32,450 bases of DNA from a virus. The stretch is taken from the IMG/VR virus record IMGVR_UViG_3300031576_000226, positions 1 to 32,450 of that record, one strand, 5' to 3'. Positions 2,651 through 18,750 of the stretch are shown here, one piece after another. Positions within the stretch are counted from its first letter, which is position 1, and every line of letters starts with the position of its first letter. The notes below the pieces were generated by a model. That model was not told the origin of the DNA. It worked only from the letters and a program-made list of their open reading frames with translations, and did no database searches. The translations under genes were made by a program, and so were the position numbers.

Positions 2651-2883
2651 TCGCCGAGATCATCGGCGGCCCGCGCGACGGACAAATCATCAAGATCGAC
2701 CCGATGCGCCTACCCGTAGACGGCGAACTGCGATTCGTTGAGGAGACGCTTGTCGTTTCACCACTCCACGGGATGAGCGCGCGCCGTGCTCGCATGCGCC
2801 ACGTCTACCATATCGAGGACGCCAACCCGCTCGACGGGAAAGCCCGACTCATCTACGTCCGCACGGAATCGGCTGAACCATGA
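2647..2883 (+). CDS. Small phage protein with GGPRDG motif
   Basis: A 78-aa protein beginning MIAEIIGGPRDGQIIKIDP. It belongs by pattern to small phage proteins that open with a strand followed by GGPxDG; their function is not known to me. The rest has alternating strands (LRFVEETLVVSP, RHVYHIED, KARLIYVRTES), suggesting a small beta-barrel or sheet. There is no Shine-Dalgarno sequence of its own. It starts within the csrA-like stop (ATGA) and its own stop overlaps the methyltransferase start in the same way, so translation is coupled along the operon. Confidence 0.7.
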   Translation: MIAEIIGGPRDGQIIKIDPMRLPVDGELRFVEETLVVSPLHGMSARRARMRHVYHIEDANPLDGKARLIYVRTESAEP

Positions 2884-3584
2884 CCCCGTACTACCAGGAC
2901 GATCTCGTCACGCTGTACCACGGAGATTGCCGGGAGATTCTTCCAATTCCACCCGCGTTGGCTTTAGTTACTGACCCACCATACGGGTTGGGAAGGCGTA
3001 TGCATGAGTCTCGCGCTGACAAACAGCATGGAGCGGCCCTTGCACCGAGCAAGAATTATGGAGAGGTTGCTTGGGACGATATCCCATGCGATAGCCGATT
3101 GCTCCGCCGGTTTGTTTGGGGCGCAGAAGAATCGGTAATATGGGGCGGGAACTTCTTTTCGCTCCCGCCGAGTCGGTGCTGGCTAGTTTGGAATAAAGAT
3201 AACGGTTCGAACGATTATGCGGACTGCGAACTTGCGTGGACAAGTCTTAACGCTCCCATTCGTTGTCTCCGACATAGGTGGATGGGGATGCTTCAGGAGT
3301 GGCCTGAGCGCCGCGTACATCCTACGCAGAAGCCACTTCCGGTGATGGAGTGGGCACTTCAGTTTATTCGGCTAGAGCTTTGCGTATTCGATCCATTTAC
3401 AGGATCAGGAACGACCCTCGTGGCCGCGAAGAATCTAGGCCGCCGCGCCATCGGTATAGAGATCGAAGAGCGATGGTGCGAGGTGGCCGCGCGACGACTA
3501 GCTCAAGAGACGCTCTTTACAGCCACAGCGGTCATGCTCGACACACACGAACAACTGACAATGCTAGAAGAAGTTCCGCCATGA
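2880..3584 (+). CDS. Beta-class site-specific DNA methyltransferase (N6-adenine or N4-cytosine)
   Basis: A 234-aa enzyme predicted to transfer a methyl group from S-adenosylmethionine to adenine N6 or cytosine N4 in DNA. Seen: catalytic motif IV TDPPYG near residues 31-37, VHPTQKP near 145, and the AdoMet-binding motif I VFDPFTGSGTT near 170-180, followed by GIEIEERWCEVAARRL. The order IV before I is that of the beta class. The target recognition part between them is short. No restriction enzyme is adjacent, so it is an orphan methyltransferase, probably protecting phage DNA. Base composition of the middle (about 2940-3420) is more AT- and G-rich than both flanks, suggesting separate ancestry. 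Start and stop are ATGA-coupled to its neighbours. Confidence 0.9.
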   Translation: MTPYYQDDLVTLYHGDCREILPIPPALALVTDPPYGLGRRMHESRADKQHGAALAPSKNYGEVAWDDIPCDSRLLRRFVWGAEESVIWGGNFFSLPPSRCWLVWNKDNGSNDYADCELAWTSLNAPIRCLRHRWMGMLQEWPERRVHPTQKPLPVMEWALQFIRLELCVFDPFTGSGTTLVAAKNLGRRAIGIEIEERWCEVAARRLAQETLFTATAVMLDTHEQLTMLEEVPP

Positions 3585-5488
3585 GCTCCTCCGTCGATCG
3601 AGTCCTCGAACGCCTCGAAAACGTCCGGCCGGACCGCGGCGGGCACAACGCGCGCTGCCCCGCCCACGACGATGCGCGTAACTCACTCCACGTCTCCGAA
3701 GGACAAAACGGCCGCGCGCTCCTCCACTGCCACGCCGGATGCTCCTTCGCCGACATCATCGCCGCAATCGGTCTCGGACCCAGCGACGCCACTCACGCGA
3801 CGAACCGCTCCACCGCCGCATCCAAGAACGACCGCCCCTTCGGCAAAACCGTCGCCGCCTACGACTACATCGACGAGAAAGGCATCCTCCTCTTCCAAGT
3901 CGCCCGAGACGAACACAAGAACTTCCGGCAACGCCGCCCCACCAACTCCGAGCCACCGGCCGAGCTCTGGACGTGGAACGTCGAAGGCATACGGAAACCG
4001 CCCTATCGGCTTCCAGAAGTCCTCGCCGCGGTGCGTTTCAAGCATCGCATCTACGTCGTCGAGGGAGAGAAAGACGCCGACGCCCTAGCCGCCCTCGGCC
4101 TCGTCGCCACCACCAACCCCGGCGGTGCCGGCAAGTGGTCCGCCGAACAATCCGCCGCGCTCAATGGCGCGGACCAGGTCTCAATCATCCCGGACAACGA
4201 TGAGCCTGGAGAGAAGCACGCGAAGGCCGTCGCCCTAGCCTTGCGTGGAATCGTGCGACGACCCCGGATCCTCCGTCTCCCCAACCTCCCACCAAAGGGC
4301 GACGTCTCCGACTGGCTCCTAGCTGGCGGGACAAAGGAAGAACTCGAGCGATTCGCCTCCGCCGGGCCCGAAACCCGAGGCTGGGAAGACGCATCCACGA
4401 TGGTCACTCAAGGACGCATCGAGACCAACTGGATCGTCCAAGGCGTCCTCGCCAGACCCTCGCTCGCGATGGTCAGCGGTGACGCCGATACCTTCAAGTC
4501 ATGGACCCTGACCCAACTCCTCATCGCGACCGCCACCCCTCAATACGCCCGAGTCCGCTGGATGGGACGATTCGACATCGCCGGTCGCCGCGCCATGCTC
4601 GTCACCGCCGACGAAGACCGCAGCGAAACCGTGCGCAAAATATCGTGGCTCGCCCGCGGACACGGCGAAGAAGTCGCCGCATCCCTGCGCGGCAACCTCC
4701 TCGTATGGTCCGACGACCTCCTCCTCGACGACCCCACAACCTGCGACGCCTTCGTCGAGGACATCGCAGACTTCGAGCCCGACATCGTCGTCATCGACCA
4801 CCTCCGCGTCTGCTTCGACGGCTCCGAAGACTCCTCCGAATTCGCCCGGAAAATCAAACTACTCGGCCGACGCATCCACGCCCTACACCCATGCGCCATC
4901 GTCTGGATCCACCACTGGCGTAAAGCCGCCGAACGAGGAGAACTCAACACCGCCCGACAACGCGCCCGCGGCACCGGCGCCCTCATCCAATCCTTCGACC
5001 ACCACCTCGCCTTCACCCGTACCGACCTCGGCCTCGGCGTCATCGAAATCGACCGAAACAAAAAAGGAAAACTCCTCCCAGACTTCTGCTTCGACCCTCG
5101 CTTCTCAGACCACGAAGGCATCGCCGCCATCGAATACCGTGGCGACGCCCCATCCGCCGCCGGTAACTCCCAAAAACCAGGCTTCGTCCTCGACTGGCTA
5201 CGACGCGCCGCCCACGAAACCCTCGCCCCCTTCCACTGCGGGGAAATCGTCGCCGCCCTCGAACACACCATCTCCAAAAACACCATACTCCGAGCCCTCA
5301 AAGTCCTCGAAAAAGACCGACTCATCACCGTCGAAGGCTCCAACAAAAATACCACCTACTACCCCCGCGAAACGAATGACTGGAACCGCGACACTGCACC
5401 CCTCTCAACCACCACAATTCCACCGTCCCATGACCGTCTCATTGAAACCACCGTCCCACCGTCCCATGACCGTGCCAAGATTTTGTAA
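3581..5488 (+). CDS. Primase-helicase: CHC2 zinc finger, TOPRIM and RepA-like ATPase
   Basis: A 635-aa replication protein. Seen in order: a zinc finger with C26-x2-H29 (CPAH) and C50-x3-C54 (CHAGC); a TOPRIM-like domain with EGEKD near 161 and PDNDEPG near 204; a RecA-fold/RepA-like ATPase with a Walker A variant SGDADTFKSW near 298-307 (Phe instead of Gly before Lys-Ser), a Walker B DIVVIDH near 401-407 and a following WIHHWRK; then a winged-helix-like segment and a Pro/Ser tail. This layout predicts RNA priming and DNA unwinding at the phage origin. The start at 3581 overlaps the methyltransferase TGA as ATGA, although the frame is open from 3350. The tail carries PPSHDR twice, encoded by the iteron-like repeats described separately. 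Codons end strongly in C, unlike the late genes. Confidence 0.87.
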   Translation: MSSSVDRVLERLENVRPDRGGHNARCPAHDDARNSLHVSEGQNGRALLHCHAGCSFADIIAAIGLGPSDATHATNRSTAASKNDRPFGKTVAAYDYIDEKGILLFQVARDEHKNFRQRRPTNSEPPAELWTWNVEGIRKPPYRLPEVLAAVRFKHRIYVVEGEKDADALAALGLVATTNPGGAGKWSAEQSAALNGADQVSIIPDNDEPGEKHAKAVALALRGIVRRPRILRLPNLPPKGDVSDWLLAGGTKEELERFASAGPETRGWEDASTMVTQGRIETNWIVQGVLARPSLAMVSGDADTFKSWTLTQLLIATATPQYARVRWMGRFDIAGRRAMLVTADEDRSETVRKISWLARGHGEEVAASLRGNLLVWSDDLLLDDPTTCDAFVEDIADFEPDIVVIDHLRVCFDGSEDSSEFARKIKLLGRRIHALHPCAIVWIHHWRKAAERGELNTARQRARGTGALIQSFDHHLAFTRTDLGLGVIEIDRNKKGKLLPDFCFDPRFSDHEGIAAIEYRGDAPSAAGNSQKPGFVLDWLRRAAHETLAPFHCGEIVAALEHTISKNTILRALKVLEKDRLITVEGSNKNTTYYPRETNDWNRDTAPLSTTTIPPSHDRLIETTVPPSHDRAKIL

Positions 5489-8157: not shown

Positions 8158-10299
8158 GTGGCGACGATGACGAGCCGACAGACGGCGTTGACTGGCGTGC
8201 GGTACGAGGGTGGTGCGGTATTCAATCGCGACGACTTCAACGCGCGGTTGGCCCAACAGGATGGGACGAAGGTTTACGACGAGATGCGCACCACGGACGC
8301 TGTCATCTCCGCGTCCCTGGATCGCATCATCTGGCCGCTCATGGCGGCGTCGTGGACCGTGCGTGCGGCCGAGGAGGATTCACAGGGCGAGGAGATCGCT
8401 GAGTTCGTCGAGTCGGTGCTGATGCCGGAGCGCTACACGCTCGGCTCGTCGCTCACGACCTGGATGGATACGTTGCGCCATGTGCTGCTCATGGTCCCGT
8501 TCGGTTTCACGGCGTTCGAGCGGGTCTGGGATGTGGACGAGCAGGGACGCAACGTGTACCGGGAGCTGTTCCCGATCCATCCTCGCAGTGTCTGGAAGTT
8601 CGAGGTAGACGAGCGTGGTGATCTAGCTGCCATCGTGCAGAGAGCGTATGACACGGGCGGGCGGCTCAAGGTGACGCGCGTCGAGGTCGGGTCCGCGATG
8701 GTCGTCACGTTTGGTCGAGAGGCGAAGAATCCCTGGGGGCGTGCGACGCTTCGCCCCATCTACGGGGACTGGTATCTGAAGCGTGTGCTGCTCGAGGTGG
8801 ACGCGATCCGGCACGAGAAGTACGGCGGCGGGATCGCCACGTTGACGATGCAGGATGGCGTCACGCGTGGTCAGGGAGCATGGGAGGAGGCCGAGAAGGT
8901 GGTGTTCGAGCTTCGGTCTCATCACCGCCAGGGCGCTGTGTTGGAGAACGGGCAGAAGCTCGAGGTTTTCTATCCGTCCGGCACTGGGTCGGACGTGATT
9001 GGGTCGGTCAAGTATCACGACGAGGCTATTGAACGCGCGTTGTGGTCGGAGTTCATGTCGATAGGGTTGTCTGAGACAGGTAGCCGCGCTACGCACGAGT
9101 CGAAGACTGGAATGCTGTTCTTGGCGAATCAGGGGGTGGCGAACGTGATTCGCGGTGCGTTCAACGCTCAGGCGATTCGTCCATTGGTGGATGCGGCGTT
9201 CGGGGTGCGGCCCGCATACCCGACGATCGAGGTCGAGGATCTGGACAAGATGACGGGGGATCAGCTTTCCACGGTGCTGGCGCCGTTGGTCAAGGCCGGG
9301 GTCATCACGCCGGATGGTGACCTCGAGGAGCATGTGCGTAACGTGCTCAAGTTCCCGGCGGCGAACCCGAAGACGGCGAAGACGCCCGTTGGGCCGGAGC
9401 CATCCGAGGATCCTGACGAAGACGAAGACGAGGCTGAAGACGCGGAGTTGGAAGCGGTGAAGGCTGGGGAGTCCGGCGCTCGGTTGATGATCGAGTTGCG
9501 TCGTGATCCTTTGCCCCACGAGTCGGCGTGTCGGTGGCGTGAGATGGCCGATTTCTTGGAGCAGGAGCCGCAGGACGTGATGCGAAACGCGGTGATCCCG
9601 GTGCGGAATCGCCAGATCTCTAAGTTGGCGAAGGCTTTGGCTTCTGGCTCTGCGGCGGAGGCCACGAAGCGCCCGCCTCCTGTGCCGTTTGTGAAGGAGA
9701 TGGTAGCGGCGATTGTGGCGGCGCTTCGCGAGGCGTACCTGCGCGGCGCCCAGGACGTGCGCCAGGAGCGAGAGCTTCAGTTGTCGGAGGAGAGGGTGTC
9801 TGGCGCGATCACGTTTCAGGAGGGCGAAGCCGACCTGGACGATGACGACATCGTGGACGAGGTGCAGCGCAAAGCATCCGCGAAGCTGAACCGGAAGGCT
9901 GAGGCGTTCGCTGTGGCGACCGGAGCCGCGTTGCTGGCTCGCGGCATGATGGAGCGCGTGGCTGTGCAGCCGAGTCTTGTCGGCGCGGCGCTGGAGAGGC
10001 AGATCGCGAACGCGATGGGCGGTCTCTCCACGGCCGTGCTCGAGGCTGAGGTGGCGGGACTGGTCGCTACGGCACTGGCTATTGGGCGTAACGATCAGGC
10101 CGCGGCGATAGGAGTGGAGCGGGCGTTCTACAGTGCGATTCTGGACGAGGGCACGTGCGATGCCTGCTTGCCTCTGGACGGCGACGAGCACGAGCCGGGT
10201 GACGTGCGGTACGAGACTCCGAATTCCGATTGTGAATCCACGGCCAGCGGGTCGAATCGTTGCCGGTGCGTCACGGTGTACGTCTGGGAGTCGCCATGA
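8158..10299 (+). CDS. Portal protein (Mu gp29-like) fused to a Mu F-like minor head domain
   Basis: A 713-aa protein. The first ~400 residues read as a Mu gp29/DUF935-type portal: DAVISASLDRIIWPLMAASW near 45-65, FGFTAFERVWDV, LFPIHPRSVW and WGRATLRPIY. This is the dodecameric ring through which DNA passes. An acidic linker (DPDEDEDEAEDAELE near 418-432) follows. The last part is helical and ends in the Mu F/SPP1 gp7 signature: FYSAILDEGTCDACLPLDG near 655-675, then CRC near 700. In Mu and SPP1, portal and minor head protein are separate genes; here no stop lies between them. GTG at 8158 starts one base after the terminase stop; ATG at 8167 is possible. The stop overlaps the next ATG. Confidence 0.85.
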   Translation: MATMTSRQTALTGVRYEGGAVFNRDDFNARLAQQDGTKVYDEMRTTDAVISASLDRIIWPLMAASWTVRAAEEDSQGEEIAEFVESVLMPERYTLGSSLTTWMDTLRHVLLMVPFGFTAFERVWDVDEQGRNVYRELFPIHPRSVWKFEVDERGDLAAIVQRAYDTGGRLKVTRVEVGSAMVVTFGREAKNPWGRATLRPIYGDWYLKRVLLEVDAIRHEKYGGGIATLTMQDGVTRGQGAWEEAEKVVFELRSHHRQGAVLENGQKLEVFYPSGTGSDVIGSVKYHDEAIERALWSEFMSIGLSETGSRATHESKTGMLFLANQGVANVIRGAFNAQAIRPLVDAAFGVRPAYPTIEVEDLDKMTGDQLSTVLAPLVKAGVITPDGDLEEHVRNVLKFPAANPKTAKTPVGPEPSEDPDEDEDEAEDAELEAVKAGESGARLMIELRRDPLPHESACRWREMADFLEQEPQDVMRNAVIPVRNRQISKLAKALASGSAAEATKRPPPVPFVKEMVAAIVAALREAYLRGAQDVRQERELQLSEERVSGAITFQEGEADLDDDDIVDEVQRKASAKLNRKAEAFAVATGAALLARGMMERVAVQPSLVGAALERQIANAMGGLSTAVLEAEVAGLVATALAIGRNDQAAAIGVERAFYSAILDEGTCDACLPLDGDEHEPGDVRYETPNSDCESTASGSNRCRCVTVYVWESP

Positions 10300-15052: not shown

Positions 15053-15271
15053 ATGGTCAAGCTCGTATATCGTGGCCCGGACGATGTGCGTTACTTCGTC
15101 GGGCCGTTCAAGGAGCGCATCGCGATGCTAAAGGACGTGCCTCGGGACGTGCCGGAGGAGTTGGCGGCTAAACTGCTCGATGAGTGCGGGCCGGGGGTGA
15201 ATCAGAATTACGAGGTGCATCGATTCGATGTTGTGGGCGGAGACGTCCGGAAAGGTGGTGATCCGAAATGA
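15053..15271 (+). CDS. Hypothetical 72-aa protein
   Basis: Begins MVKLVYRGPDDVRYFVGP. ATG at 15053 is chosen because GGAGGG lies 8 bases ahead; an in-frame ATG at 15035 overlaps the previous stop but lacks its own site. Seen: short strands (LVYRGP, RYFVGPF) and a helix (PEELAAKLLDECG). Small proteins of this type, with an 'IVYRGP...Y..G..F' pattern, occur between tail terminator and tube genes in other phages. The role is unknown. Confidence 0.65.
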   Translation: MVKLVYRGPDDVRYFVGPFKERIAMLKDVPRDVPEELAAKLLDECGPGVNQNYEVHRFDVVGGDVRKGGDPK

Positions 15272-16329
15272 GTATGGGGATCGGCTATGCGTCCTACGTA
15301 TCGTTCGCGATGCAGACGGCGTTCCGTTCCGCAGCTACGCCGACGATAACAGCCGCCCACATTCGTGGAGGGCCTGTATTTTCTCCGAGGCAGACTCAGG
15401 TGCCACGGGTCACGACGACGACAGCCATGAAGAGGGCTGGGCAGTTGTGGGACACGATGGGTCTTGTGGATTTCACGATAGAGTTCGAGATGGTGGCGAA
15501 CGCCACGGCATGGCTCGCGCTCCACACAGCGGCTTGGTGCAAGCGGCTCAAGGCGGGAGCTGGGCCGTTCACGCACACGTATACGGTGAACGATCCGCCA
15601 ATGGACGGCGGTACGGACGGGACGCCTGCGAATACGTTCTACAATCACGGGCTCACGATCCGTAACACGATCCACGACGGCACGGCCGAGGTGAAGACGT
15701 ATCAGGTTGCGGACTGTTGCCCAACTCAGTTCGTGTTGACGATGCCGGCGAACGAGCCGCTTAGGTTCGGGATGTCTGGGGTGGGGCAGACGATGACGGC
15801 CTCCACGGCCACGGCCTTCACGGACGTTTCGGGCACGTTGGAGGCTTGGAAGCACGCCTACAAGGGGGCGAACAGTGGAATCTACGTCGGAGCGACGAAT
15901 CCGCCCGCGCTGAATGGCGCCGAGAGCATGATCATCCGGCGTGCGGTGTTCACGCTGGAGAACAACCTTTCGTTCGAGCCGGGGCTTGGTACTCCGAGTG
16001 GGCAGGAGCTGTTGCATCCAACTAGGGCCGATCATCCTGCGGGACGCATTGAGTTTGAGATGGACTACGAGGACGCGGCGTCGGTCACGGACGCGGTCCA
16101 GATCATGACAGACTATATTGCCGGGACTGAGGAGAACGCTCGCCTCGTCTACTACGTGGACGCGAACAACGCCTTGGAGATCAAGGCTAGCGGGGCGACG
16201 AAGCCAGGGGTGATTGACTCGCCGCGCCCTTCGACGCCGGATACAGGCCGGGCGAAGTTCAGCTTCAACCTGATGCTTTATCCGGACACGATCTCCGATC
16301 TGTCGATGATTCAGACCACGGCTTCGTAA
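15268..16329 (+). CDS. Tail tube protein
   Basis: A 353-aa protein, ATGA-coupled to the 72-aa gene. Seen: MSMGIGYASYVSFAMQTAFRS opening like other siphophage tube proteins, beta-rich body (VDFTIEFEMVANATAWLALHTAAW, QFVLTMPANEPLRFGMSGVGQ, FTLENNLSFEPGLG, RIEFEMDYED) and an IEIK-like module near the C-terminus (NARLVYYVDANNALEIKASG). The 'FTLENNL' strand with later 'GRIEFEMDYED' resembles the major tail tube family found just upstream of tail assembly chaperones. It polymerises into the tail tube. Length is above the ~200-aa minimum, suggesting an added domain. Confidence 0.72.
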   Translation: MSMGIGYASYVSFAMQTAFRSAATPTITAAHIRGGPVFSPRQTQVPRVTTTTAMKRAGQLWDTMGLVDFTIEFEMVANATAWLALHTAAWCKRLKAGAGPFTHTYTVNDPPMDGGTDGTPANTFYNHGLTIRNTIHDGTAEVKTYQVADCCPTQFVLTMPANEPLRFGMSGVGQTMTASTATAFTDVSGTLEAWKHAYKGANSGIYVGATNPPALNGAESMIIRRAVFTLENNLSFEPGLGTPSGQELLHPTRADHPAGRIEFEMDYEDAASVTDAVQIMTDYIAGTEENARLVYYVDANNALEIKASGATKPGVIDSPRPSTPDTGRAKFSFNLMLYPDTISDLSMIQTTAS

Positions 16330-16348
16330 TTCGCTACTGGAGGGCATG

Positions 16349-16711
16349 ATGGGATTGACCGAGACGTTTCTAGCCAGCAACACGATGCGGTTTTCAGCCG
16401 GTGGTGTTGACTTCGAGGTGTGTAGGCTCACGACGGCCGAGATGTTGGCCGTTCGCGGCGGCGTGCCGAGGCTGAAGAACGACCCAGACAGGAAGGAAGC
16501 TCCTACGCCGGAGGAAGAGACTGCCTTCATGCGAAGCGTCGTCACCGCCTCGCTTAAGTCTCCGAGGCTGTGCAAGAACGGATCGGTTCCGGCCGATGAT
16601 GAGCTTTCCTATGAGGCGATTCCGTTCGGCCTGGCGAATCGGATCATGATGTTCGCCTTGTCGGACGTCGTGTCAGGGCAGGAGGACTCCGCGCTTCGGG
16701 GGATTCTTTGA
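16349..16711 (+). CDS. Tail assembly chaperone, short form (G)
   Basis: A 120-aa protein. GGAGGG at 16339-16344 precedes two consecutive ATG codons (16346 and 16349); 16349 gives the better spacing. Seen: RFSAGGVDFEVCRLTTAEMLAVRGGVPRL, then EEETAFMRSVVTASLKSPRL and ELSYEAIPFGLANRIMMFAL. This matches the G-like tail chaperone pattern that lies between tube and tape measure genes and helps assemble the tape measure. The zero frame ends at TGA 16709-16711, which is also the slip site for the longer GT form. Confidence 0.72.
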   Translation: MGLTETFLASNTMRFSAGGVDFEVCRLTTAEMLAVRGGVPRLKNDPDRKEAPTPEEETAFMRSVVTASLKSPRLCKNGSVPADDELSYEAIPFGLANRIMMFALSDVVSGQEDSALRGIL

Positions 16712-16964
16712 CTCGGAGGGTCTTACGTTGATGATTGACGGCCTTGCGCAGCGGTACGGCGTGAGGCCGTCGGAGCTTGCAACGGGGTCGATGTCGTGGC
16801 TCAAGTTCGATATGGAGGTCGGCGTGGCCGGGTCCGAGAACGAAGCCAGAGGCAGGGACGCCGCAAGGAACGGCAGGCTTTCGAGCAATGCGATGTCTCG
16901 TGACGCTATGAGGTCGGAATTGGACGCTTGGAGCAAGGCGGAAGAGGCGGCACGCAATGGCTGA
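16349..16964 (+). CDS. Tail assembly chaperone, +1 frameshift fusion (GT)
   Basis: The zero frame (120 residues, to CTT 16706-16708) can join the +1 frame from GAC 16710 to TGA 16962-16964, giving about 204 aa. The +1 frame is open from 16650 and encodes DSEGLTLMIDGLAQRYGVRPSEL and then SMSWLKFDMEV. 'RYGxRPSEL' followed by a Trp/Phe helix is typical of the T part of tail chaperones. The T part has no good ribosome-binding site of its own. The stop overlaps the tape measure start by 8 bases. The frameshift is predicted from the gene layout and the slip site, not observed. Confidence 0.75.
16694..16712 (+). promoter_or_regulatory. prfB-like programmed +1 frameshift site
   Basis: CTT CGG GGG ATT CTT TGA C. 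The E. coli prfB site is CTT AGG GGG TAT CTT TGA C. Both have a G-run Shine-Dalgarno-like element exactly three bases before CTT, then a UGA stop followed by C, a poor termination context. Slippage of the P-site tRNA from CUU to UUU moves the ribosome +1 into the T frame. Confidence 0.8.
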
Positions 16965-18750
16965 GCAGCAGGATCTGCGTCTCAAGATAGAGGCCATCAA
17001 CGCGGCGACGACCGCGTTATCTCAGGTCCAGGCACAGCTTTCATCGCTGAAGGGCCGCACAGACGACTTCAATAAGTCACAGGACAAGGTGTCGGCAGGC
17101 CAGAAGGCGCTCCAGAACGCTTTAGGCCAGGTGTCGCAGTCGATGAGGAGTCAGGCGTCTCAGATCGGAGCCTTCAGCGGCGCGATGGATGCCGCGGCTG
17201 CTTCTGGGTCTTCGTTGGTCGTGGCTTCGGCCGGAGTGGCGGCCGGCATGGTGGCCATAGGGGTGGCCGCGTTTTCGGCTTCCAAGTTCATCGGCGACTA
17301 CGCCGAGTCGGTGACGAACGCTGCGTTGCGTACTGGGCTCACGGTCCAGGAGATCGGTGGGCTAAGGGTCGCTGCGGCGAACGTTGGCCGCAGCTTCGAG
17401 TCGGTGGAGACCGGAGTTTCTATCTTCGTCAGGAAGCTCGACGAGGCTCGTAACGGTTCCGAGGAGGCCGTGCGTGCGTTCCAGAGACTCGGCATATCGT
17501 CCGGGGATCTGAACCGTTCCGTCGGGGAGAATCTCGAGGCCGTCGGAGAGGCACTTGCGAAGATCGAAGATCCCGCGAAGCGGTCTGCCGTGGCGTTTGC
17601 GTTGCTTGGGCGTCAGGGTGGGGCACTGATCCCGGTGCTAATGCAGAATCTTGATGCGGCGGAGGAGTTGGCAATCGAGTACGGGGTGACTCTTTCTCCG
17701 GCCATGCAGAAGGTAGCGGACGACGCGGATAAAGCTCACGACCGATTGAAGATTGCCACCGACGGGCTTCGCAACATCATCGCGGTGACGCTGGCTCCGT
17801 TGGGGACCATGATCGCAAACATGGGTACTGATTTCGTCGCCGGCCTGCGTGACATGACCAGCGGAATCCAAACGTTTACATCTAAATTGATTCCCGGACT
17901 CGATAAGCTTGAACGTTGGGTGAGGTTGGCGTCCATTTTCAGGCCGAGCCTTCCTGGGTTTGGATTCCTAGCTGACAAGGGCAGGCCAGGAGCCGATGTC
18001 GTCGTTGGGCCTGGCGGAGAGATACCCGACGCCGTTCCTGGCGGCAGGACGGTTCCTCCGAGCTTCGATTCGGAGGAGGCGTTTAAACGAATGGCGGGAT
18101 TCGGGGAGACAGGCCCCGAGTTCGGCTACAAGTATTCATCGAATCGGACTCGGGAACAGATGGTTGCGTTGACGGAAGGCACGTTCGGTCCGCTCGAGGA
18201 GAGCCTGGATCTTCTGGCTGAAACGTCTTTGGATCTGGGAAATGGGTTCAAGATGGTGGACGGAGAGATCGTCAAGACCTCCACCCAATTCGATAAGTTC
18301 TCTCAAACTGTGATGAAAACCTCAGCTGCCGCGATTTCAGGCGCAGTTTCTGACGTAATACTTGGATTCAACAACCTGGGAGATGCGGTGAAGAACCTAA
18401 CGACGACGATTTTGGATGTTGTGATTCGCGCTGGTGTGAGTGCATTGCTTGGTGGTATAGGGTTTCAGCACGGTGGTGTCGTGATGTCGGGGGTCTATGG
18501 CAAGGACACGGTGCCTGCGATGTTGGGGCGAGGGGAAGCTGTGATCGGGCACGAGTTCACGGCGAAGCTGGATCGGTTCCTGACTTCCGTGGAGCGCGGT
18601 GGAGGATCTGACAGACGTTCGGCTCCCAGCGTAAGCATCTCCGTGGACGCTCGTGGCGGGTTTCTGGACCGGCAGGCCCTCGACGATCTGGTGTCGGAGC
18701 GCATCATTCCGTCGTTGAATCGAGCCCTGTCCACAGGTAGTCACCGATAG
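16957..18750 (+). CDS. Tail tape measure protein
   Basis: A 597-aa protein that sets tail length and leads DNA ejection. Seen: N-terminal coiled coil (LRLKIEAINAATTALSQVQAQLSSLKG...), a hydrophobic segment near 85-110 (SLVVASAGVAAGMVAIGVAAFSASKFIG), tape-measure-like LRTGLTVQEIGGLRVAAANVG near 125-145 and LEAVGEALAKIEDPAKRSAVAFALLGRQG, a second membrane-like stretch (LRNIIAVTLAPLGTMI), and a C-terminal FQHGGVVMSGVYGKDTVPAMLGRGEAVIGHEF, the usual tape measure end. At roughly 1.5 angstrom per residue it predicts a tail near 90 nm, short for a siphovirus. It starts inside the GT stop region. Confidence 0.88.
   Translation: MAEQQDLRLKIEAINAATTALSQVQAQLSSLKGRTDDFNKSQDKVSAGQKALQNALGQVSQSMRSQASQIGAFSGAMDAAAASGSSLVVASAGVAAGMVAIGVAAFSASKFIGDYAESVTNAALRTGLTVQEIGGLRVAAANVGRSFESVETGVSIFVRKLDEARNGSEEAVRAFQRLGISSGDLNRSVGENLEAVGEALAKIEDPAKRSAVAFALLGRQGGALIPVLMQNLDAAEELAIEYGVTLSPAMQKVADDADKAHDRLKIATDGLRNIIAVTLAPLGTMIANMGTDFVAGLRDMTSGIQTFTSKLIPGLDKLERWVRLASIFRPSLPGFGFLADKGRPGADVVVGPGGEIPDAVPGGRTVPPSFDSEEAFKRMAGFGETGPEFGYKYSSNRTREQMVALTEGTFGPLEESLDLLAETSLDLGNGFKMVDGEIVKTSTQFDKFSQTVMKTSAAAISGAVSDVILGFNNLGDAVKNLTTTILDVVIRAGVSALLGGIGFQHGGVVMSGVYGKDTVPAMLGRGEAVIGHEFTAKLDRFLTSVERGGGSDRRSAPSVSISVDARGGFLDRQALDDLVSERIIPSLNRALSTGSHR

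Follow-up and report, generated by a model that had tools for sequence, protein, structure and literature searches.

The present analysis concerns the IMG/VR virus record IMGVR_UViG_3300031576_000226, an orphan record of an unclassified phage that consists of a single metagenomic contig and was analysed over its whole length of 32,450 bases (the window). Its tail genes include a tube-like gene, assigned by a weak match, followed by the genes termed here G and T and by the gene for the tape measure protein, an order that fits the position of a G/GT tail assembly chaperone in a long-tailed phage. The features of this locus are as follows.

15268..16329, + strand: likely tail tube protein gene, upstream of G (weak PHROG 290 (tail) and Pfam Phage_tube_2 matches)
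16346..16711, + strand: G-like tail assembly chaperone gene (alignment, AlphaFold2 model, Foldseek)
16680..16685, + strand: AGGAGG, an SD-like run 20 nt 5′ of the putative slip codon (a similar run at 16–23 nt in four +1 relatives)
16697..16702, + strand: CGGGGG, candidate SD-like stimulator three bases 5′ of the slip codon (hybrid −8.6 kcal/mol; spacing as in prfB)
16706..16709, + strand: CTT_T, putative +1 slip tetranucleotide (sequence; prfB analogy, PMC12421855)
16709..16712, + strand: TGA stop codon of G and the C after it, a weak termination context (sequence)
16710..16964, + strand: T domain in the +1 frame, 84 codons and a stop, with GAC as the first codon after the predicted slip (homologous T in 17 other lineages)
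16715..16733, + strand: GGAGGG (16715–16720), 7 nt 5′ of TTG 16728 and 10 nt 5′ of ATG 16731, both in the T frame (hybrid −9.7 kcal/mol)
16735..16773, + strand: 15-bp hairpin within the T coding region (RYGVRP segment; z −2.4)
16957..18750, + strand: tape measure protein (PHROG 8462, E 1.5e-20, and others)

By sequence, neither G nor T matched a PHROG or Pfam family. The G protein, which begins at ATG 16346 (121 aa) or ATG 16349 (120 aa), was modelled by AlphaFold2 from an input alignment of 16 rows with a pLDDT of 81.5. When this model was compared by Foldseek with BFVD, the targets of which are themselves predicted viral proteins, the named matches were mostly tail assembly chaperones (E 2e-3 to 1e-2, probability 0.98–1.00), among them proteins of Mycobacterium phages Hawkeye and Madruga and Bacillus phage Gemini; the PDB gave no chaperone match by sequence or by fold. 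Judged by its predicted fold, its alignment and its position, G is a tail assembly chaperone.

The T domain lies in the +1 frame relative to G. As the first-pass annotation of this DNA had described, that frame, with its RYGVRPSEL segment, is open as far as the tape measure gene: it spans 16650–16964 and ends in a stop that overlaps the tape measure ATG at 16957. Alignment with the relatives described below shows T to be conserved at RYGVRPSE and at an FD position. The −1 frame meets a stop at 16729–16731 and is thus closed to the canonical −1 chaperone shift on a slippery heptamer, so that T can be reached from G only by a +1 (or −2) change of frame.

In the zero frame, the 3′ end of G reads CTT CGG GGG ATT CTT TGA C (CTT, 16694–16696; CGG; GGG, 16700–16702; ATT; CTT, 16706–16708; TGA, 16709–16711; C, 16712), with a run of five Gs at 16698–16702 that ends three bases 5′ of the CTT at 16706. 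The letters and open reading frames here, including the three-base gap, agree with the earlier account of the site at 16694–16712 as a near copy of the prfB +1 site. The site has all elements of the prfB cassette in their exact spacing, namely the SD-like run, the three-base spacer, CTT_T, TGA and C, and the predicted hybrid between the G-run and the 16S tail (anti-SD), at −8.6 kcal/mol, is nearly as stable as that of the prfB AGGGGG (−8.8 kcal/mol). Resampling of codons from the phage's own genes gave probabilities of 0.016 for an SD this strong at this spacing, 0.014 for CTT, 0.56 for TGA and 0.22 for C, the product of which is a joint chance of 2.7e-5 per gene end for a prfB-like site. In the window, over all frames and both strands, the combination of SD, YTT and stop occurs at this site alone. 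Among 2.9 million viral contigs, 18 other stretches carry the exact pattern CTTMGGGGGNNNCTTTGAC, none of them (0/18) at a tail chaperone, and of 45 matches to CTTTGA with a YGxRPxE-like motif within 15–45 nt, none proved on inspection to be a gene end with a T domain in +1. The prfB-like site at the end of G is real and not a product of chance. The hairpin at 16735–16773 was also considered as a shift stimulator but is given no weight: it starts 26 nt from the start of the TGA, too distant for a typical stimulator, and is absent in the other +1 relatives. It sits just 3′ of the possible TTG and ATG starts.

Protein scans of viral contigs with G, T and the portal yielded no confirmed close relative of the window, a DNA search with the locus found no match among phage records, and the tail tube and a 950-aa tail protein returned no relatives as tblastn queries. 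The first relative of the chaperone was a weak tblastn match of the G+T fusion (E 0.06) that lay in the right place in phage MW202444. Patterns conserved in the alignment of the window with MW202444 were used to search for more, giving a total of 18 lineages including the window, where a lineage is one locus or a set of loci that are nearly identical; because L021 is more closely related to L088, and L076 to L078, the 18 lineages do not amount to 18 independent origins. The query of the last viral scan, which gave further lineages, included two composed consensus rows (one family-like, one varied) that served as query only, and each match from it was judged on its own DNA. Within 80 bacterial genomes from the phylum of the sole bacterial relative, the family was detected in that genome only. 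The family is very divergent, with a best T identity to the window of 56%.

In all 18 lineages T is out of frame with G. It stands in the +1 frame in seven of them (the window, L020, L022/23, L025, L026, L094/95/97 and L101) and the other eleven have it in −1. The generalisation in the first-pass annotation that tail chaperones usually shift by −1 is correct for tail chaperones at large, but +1 is common in this family. On a tree of the GT fusions, the branches of which are long and unresolved, the direction changes about five times. In roughly half of the lineages (L020, L022/23, L075, L081, L084, L094 and L096/98) there is no ATG, GTG or TTG between the opening of the T frame and RYG, and T there must therefore be translated as a frameshift fusion; these start-less T domains provide the best grounds for expecting that the window, too, makes a fusion. 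A search of the related chaperone genes for the same site, which had been suggested as a check, came back empty: CTT_TGA is present in none of the ~17 other lineages and belongs to the window alone. This absence, the divergence of the family and its −1 majority weigh against the prfB-type reading put forward below.

The slip codons of the relatives are putative, being readings of the overlap between frames, and each was measured to RYG by manual counting; in most of the family they fall ~40–62 nt 5′ of RYG, and the corresponding distance from CTT in the window is 43 nt. Besides the window, the +1 lineages comprise five with TTT_C and one (L026) with an SD-spaced CTT_C. The TTT_C sites, which resemble that of influenza PA-X and are followed by CGA, CGT or CCT, read as follows in the zero frame.

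L022, 1176–1195: AAT TTT CGA
L094, 2929–3020: CCC TTT CGT
L101, 2944–2987: AAT TTT CGT
L020, 6218–6330: AAC TTT CCT
L025, 3522–3670: GTG TTT CCT

TTT_C re-pairs perfectly in +1, and its occurrence in the overlap zone of the five lineages has a combined P of 5e-4 by codon shuffle, with motif and zone chosen post hoc. It seems to represent a second kind of +1 chaperone shift, apparently unreported in the literature examined. In L026, GGGAGG-TTC-CTT-CCT supplies an SD, three bases and CTT_C, which is the prfB layout without the stop. The −1 members have mostly NNC_CCT, and in one −1 branch of four aligned members C_CCT is invariant at the junction, at these positions.

L076, 2981–3080
L078, 2981–3080
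L100, 2975–3074
L093, 2960–3059

C_CCT is followed by TAG in L075, L076 and L078, and three further −1 lineages (L024, L096 and L081) have A-rich or A_AAT_TTT sites. In L076, L078 and L100 a long stem begins ~5 nt 3′ of the junction (z −2.2 to −3.4). The two sides of this stem appear to covary, changing together among the three. Strong SD-like runs occur 6–13 nt 5′ of the slip in four −1 members, 16–23 nt 5′ of it in five +1 members (the window, L020, L025, L094 and L101) and 2–3 nt 5′ of it in the window and L026. For the +1 group, SD strength over the 30 nt that precede the slip is in excess, with a combined P of 2e-5 (post hoc). A distance of 16–23 nt lies beyond the known prfB or dnaX spacings, and the distant runs may perhaps derive from conserved residues.

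Collectively, the homologues, the predicted fold, the site statistics and the gene position support the earlier reading of the locus as a G/T chaperone with T in +1 behind a prfB-like site, and we think it probable that a prfB-type +1 shift at CUU_UGA makes the GT fusion. In prfB, slow termination allows an SD-paired ribosome, whose P site is occupied by CUU and whose A site by UGA_C, to slip to UUU (PMC5009743, PMC12421855). By analogy, most ribosomes on the phage message would terminate at TGA 16709 and release G, while some would pause at UGA_C, a poor termination signal, with 16S rRNA paired to the G-run three bases before the CUU. Such a ribosome, holding CUU in its P site, would be strained towards +1 by this pairing for as long as termination is slow, the peptidyl-tRNA-Leu would slip from CUU to UUU, and translation would resume in the +1 frame (...GIL|DSEGLTLMIDGLAQRYGVRPSEL...) to give a GT fusion predicted at 205 aa. 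The slip at CUU, its efficiency and its dependence on release factor 2 (RF2) are features that we infer. RF2 competition is part of the prfB mechanism, and the G:GT ratio should therefore respond to RF2, a dependence that is plausible here. The prfB motif shifts ~53% of ribosomes in B. subtilis and 6.6% in M. smegmatis (PMC12421855), and the G:GT ratio of lambda is ~30:1 (PMC5009743); set against that ratio, such rates mean that GT might be overproduced unless the host or the context lowers the rate. More speculatively, and in our view rather doubtfully, RF2-sensitive recoding may set the chaperone ratio, with GT rising when free RF2 is scarce and tail assembly thereby tied to how well the host can terminate translation, in which case a prfB-type cassette would have arisen independently in, or been captured by, a morphogenesis gene.

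The alternative that survives best dispenses with a frameshift: T would be translated as a protein of its own, with TTG 16728 or ATG 16731 as the start, GGAGGG (16715–16720) as the ribosome-binding site and initiation coupled to termination of G. Few of this phage's ribosome-binding sites are predicted to pair more stably than GGAGGG, which the first-pass annotation does not mention; because this run is well placed for either start, T might be initiated in this way besides or instead of the shift. However, whereas T of the window has in-frame TTG and ATG codons behind a good SD, a start codon is missing from about half of the homologous T frames, which argues that the family makes T by fusion; the residues that precede the TTG, DSEGLT, are similar to DRGGLT in the start-less T of L075; and the prfB-like cassette would have to be a coincidence (3e-5). 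We consider separate initiation unlikely as the sole route to T.

It is less likely still that ribosomes enter the T frame elsewhere between 16650 and 16709, either through tRNA-Gly slipping −2 within the five Gs (from GGG to GGG, Mu-like) or through a +1 slip on GGG_A. Either would yield the T frame, GGG 16700–16702 re-pairs perfectly two bases back, and its 49 nt to RYG are within the family range; Mu gpGT provides the one known natural −2 case (PMC3498833). Yet the A-site codon after GGG is ATT, neither a slow codon nor a stop, a tandem slip of CGG GGG is unsupported, no stem is adjacent on the 3′ side, and the other +1 relatives are read as using P-site slips at CTT_C or TTT_C. An assembly or sequencing indel within one gene is a very improbable cause of the frame break: the source is a single metagenomic contig with a G5 run beside the junction, but every other lineage found has T and G in different frames, and the SD, the spacing, CTT, TGA and C would not arise from an indel. 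Least credible of all is that G simply ends at the TGA with T unexpressed or the site vestigial, since T is conserved at RYGVRPSE and the FD position and its end overlaps the start of the tape measure gene.

The prfB-type shift that we favour shares with the RF2 gene the SD-like G-run, the three-base spacer, CUU_U, UGA and the following C. The site in the window differs in having CGGGGG for AGGGGG, in lying near the 3′ end of its gene and not early in it, in following an upstream product that is a full functional domain, and in lacking an autoregulatory loop by that product; because the gene is a phage chaperone gene and not the RF2 gene, its likeness to the cassette does not make the site a prfB site. 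According to the discussion by the PRFect authors, all +1 sites in RECODE with CUU before a stop are prfB (PMC10274946). The order of tail tube, G, T and tape measure genes, the fold of the G domain and a T in another frame that ends at the tape measure gene are shared with lambda G/GT, in contrast to which the window has its predicted shift in +1 at a stop codon, where lambda shifts by −1 on a slippery heptamer, and may produce a far higher proportion of GT. The "shifty stop" major tail proteins (SPP1 17.1*, Listeria PSA tsh and lactococcal phiC0139) likewise slip +1 at the final sense codon ahead of a stop, but they use CCC_UAA, CCC_UGA or CCC_UAG and extend the tail tube protein, not a chaperone, by a domain, and the parts of the sources available to us mention no SD stimulator for them. 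A GT in +1 is considered very likely in the chaperone of the archaeal virus HSTV-2 (PMC5009743); there the host is archaeal, and the portion of that account available to us mentions no prfB-like site. Influenza PA-X shifts on UUU_CGU, with CGN codons preferred in the A site (PMC3498833), and the five +1 relatives with UUU_CGU, UUU_CGA or UUU_CCU appear to be of like kind, whereas the window has CUU_UGA and an SD instead. The GGGGG of the window would also allow the Mu-type P-site shift from GGG to GGG into the same frame as +1, although it lacks a stalling codon or an adjacent stem. In the open-licence papers searched, we found no report of a prfB-like or RF2-dependent shift site in a phage tail gene. 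Thus, from its sequence, the locus appears to be a G/GT locus of a known kind with a prfB-like signal that we did not find described for such a locus.

If the site shifts as predicted, the prfB cassette would be a portable +1 module that is not private to release factor 2, and a structural ratio of the phage would be under the control of a termination factor. The family also offers a natural experiment: a single chaperone gene appears to carry both +1 (CUU_UGA, CUU_C and UUU_C) and −1 (C_CCU, A_AAA_AAG and A_AAT_TTT) signals, such that candidate determinants of direction, including SD spacing, the downstream stem and the A-site codon, can be compared within one gene.

Two further observations concern the remainder of the window. 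The portal gene (8158–10299) matches the Mu portal and Thermus P23-45 portal-barrel profiles, and its C-terminal part matches Mu F-like proteins, such that this long portal may be a fusion with an F-like domain. A DNA methyltransferase-like gene (2880–3584) overlaps the primase/helicase gene (3350–5488).
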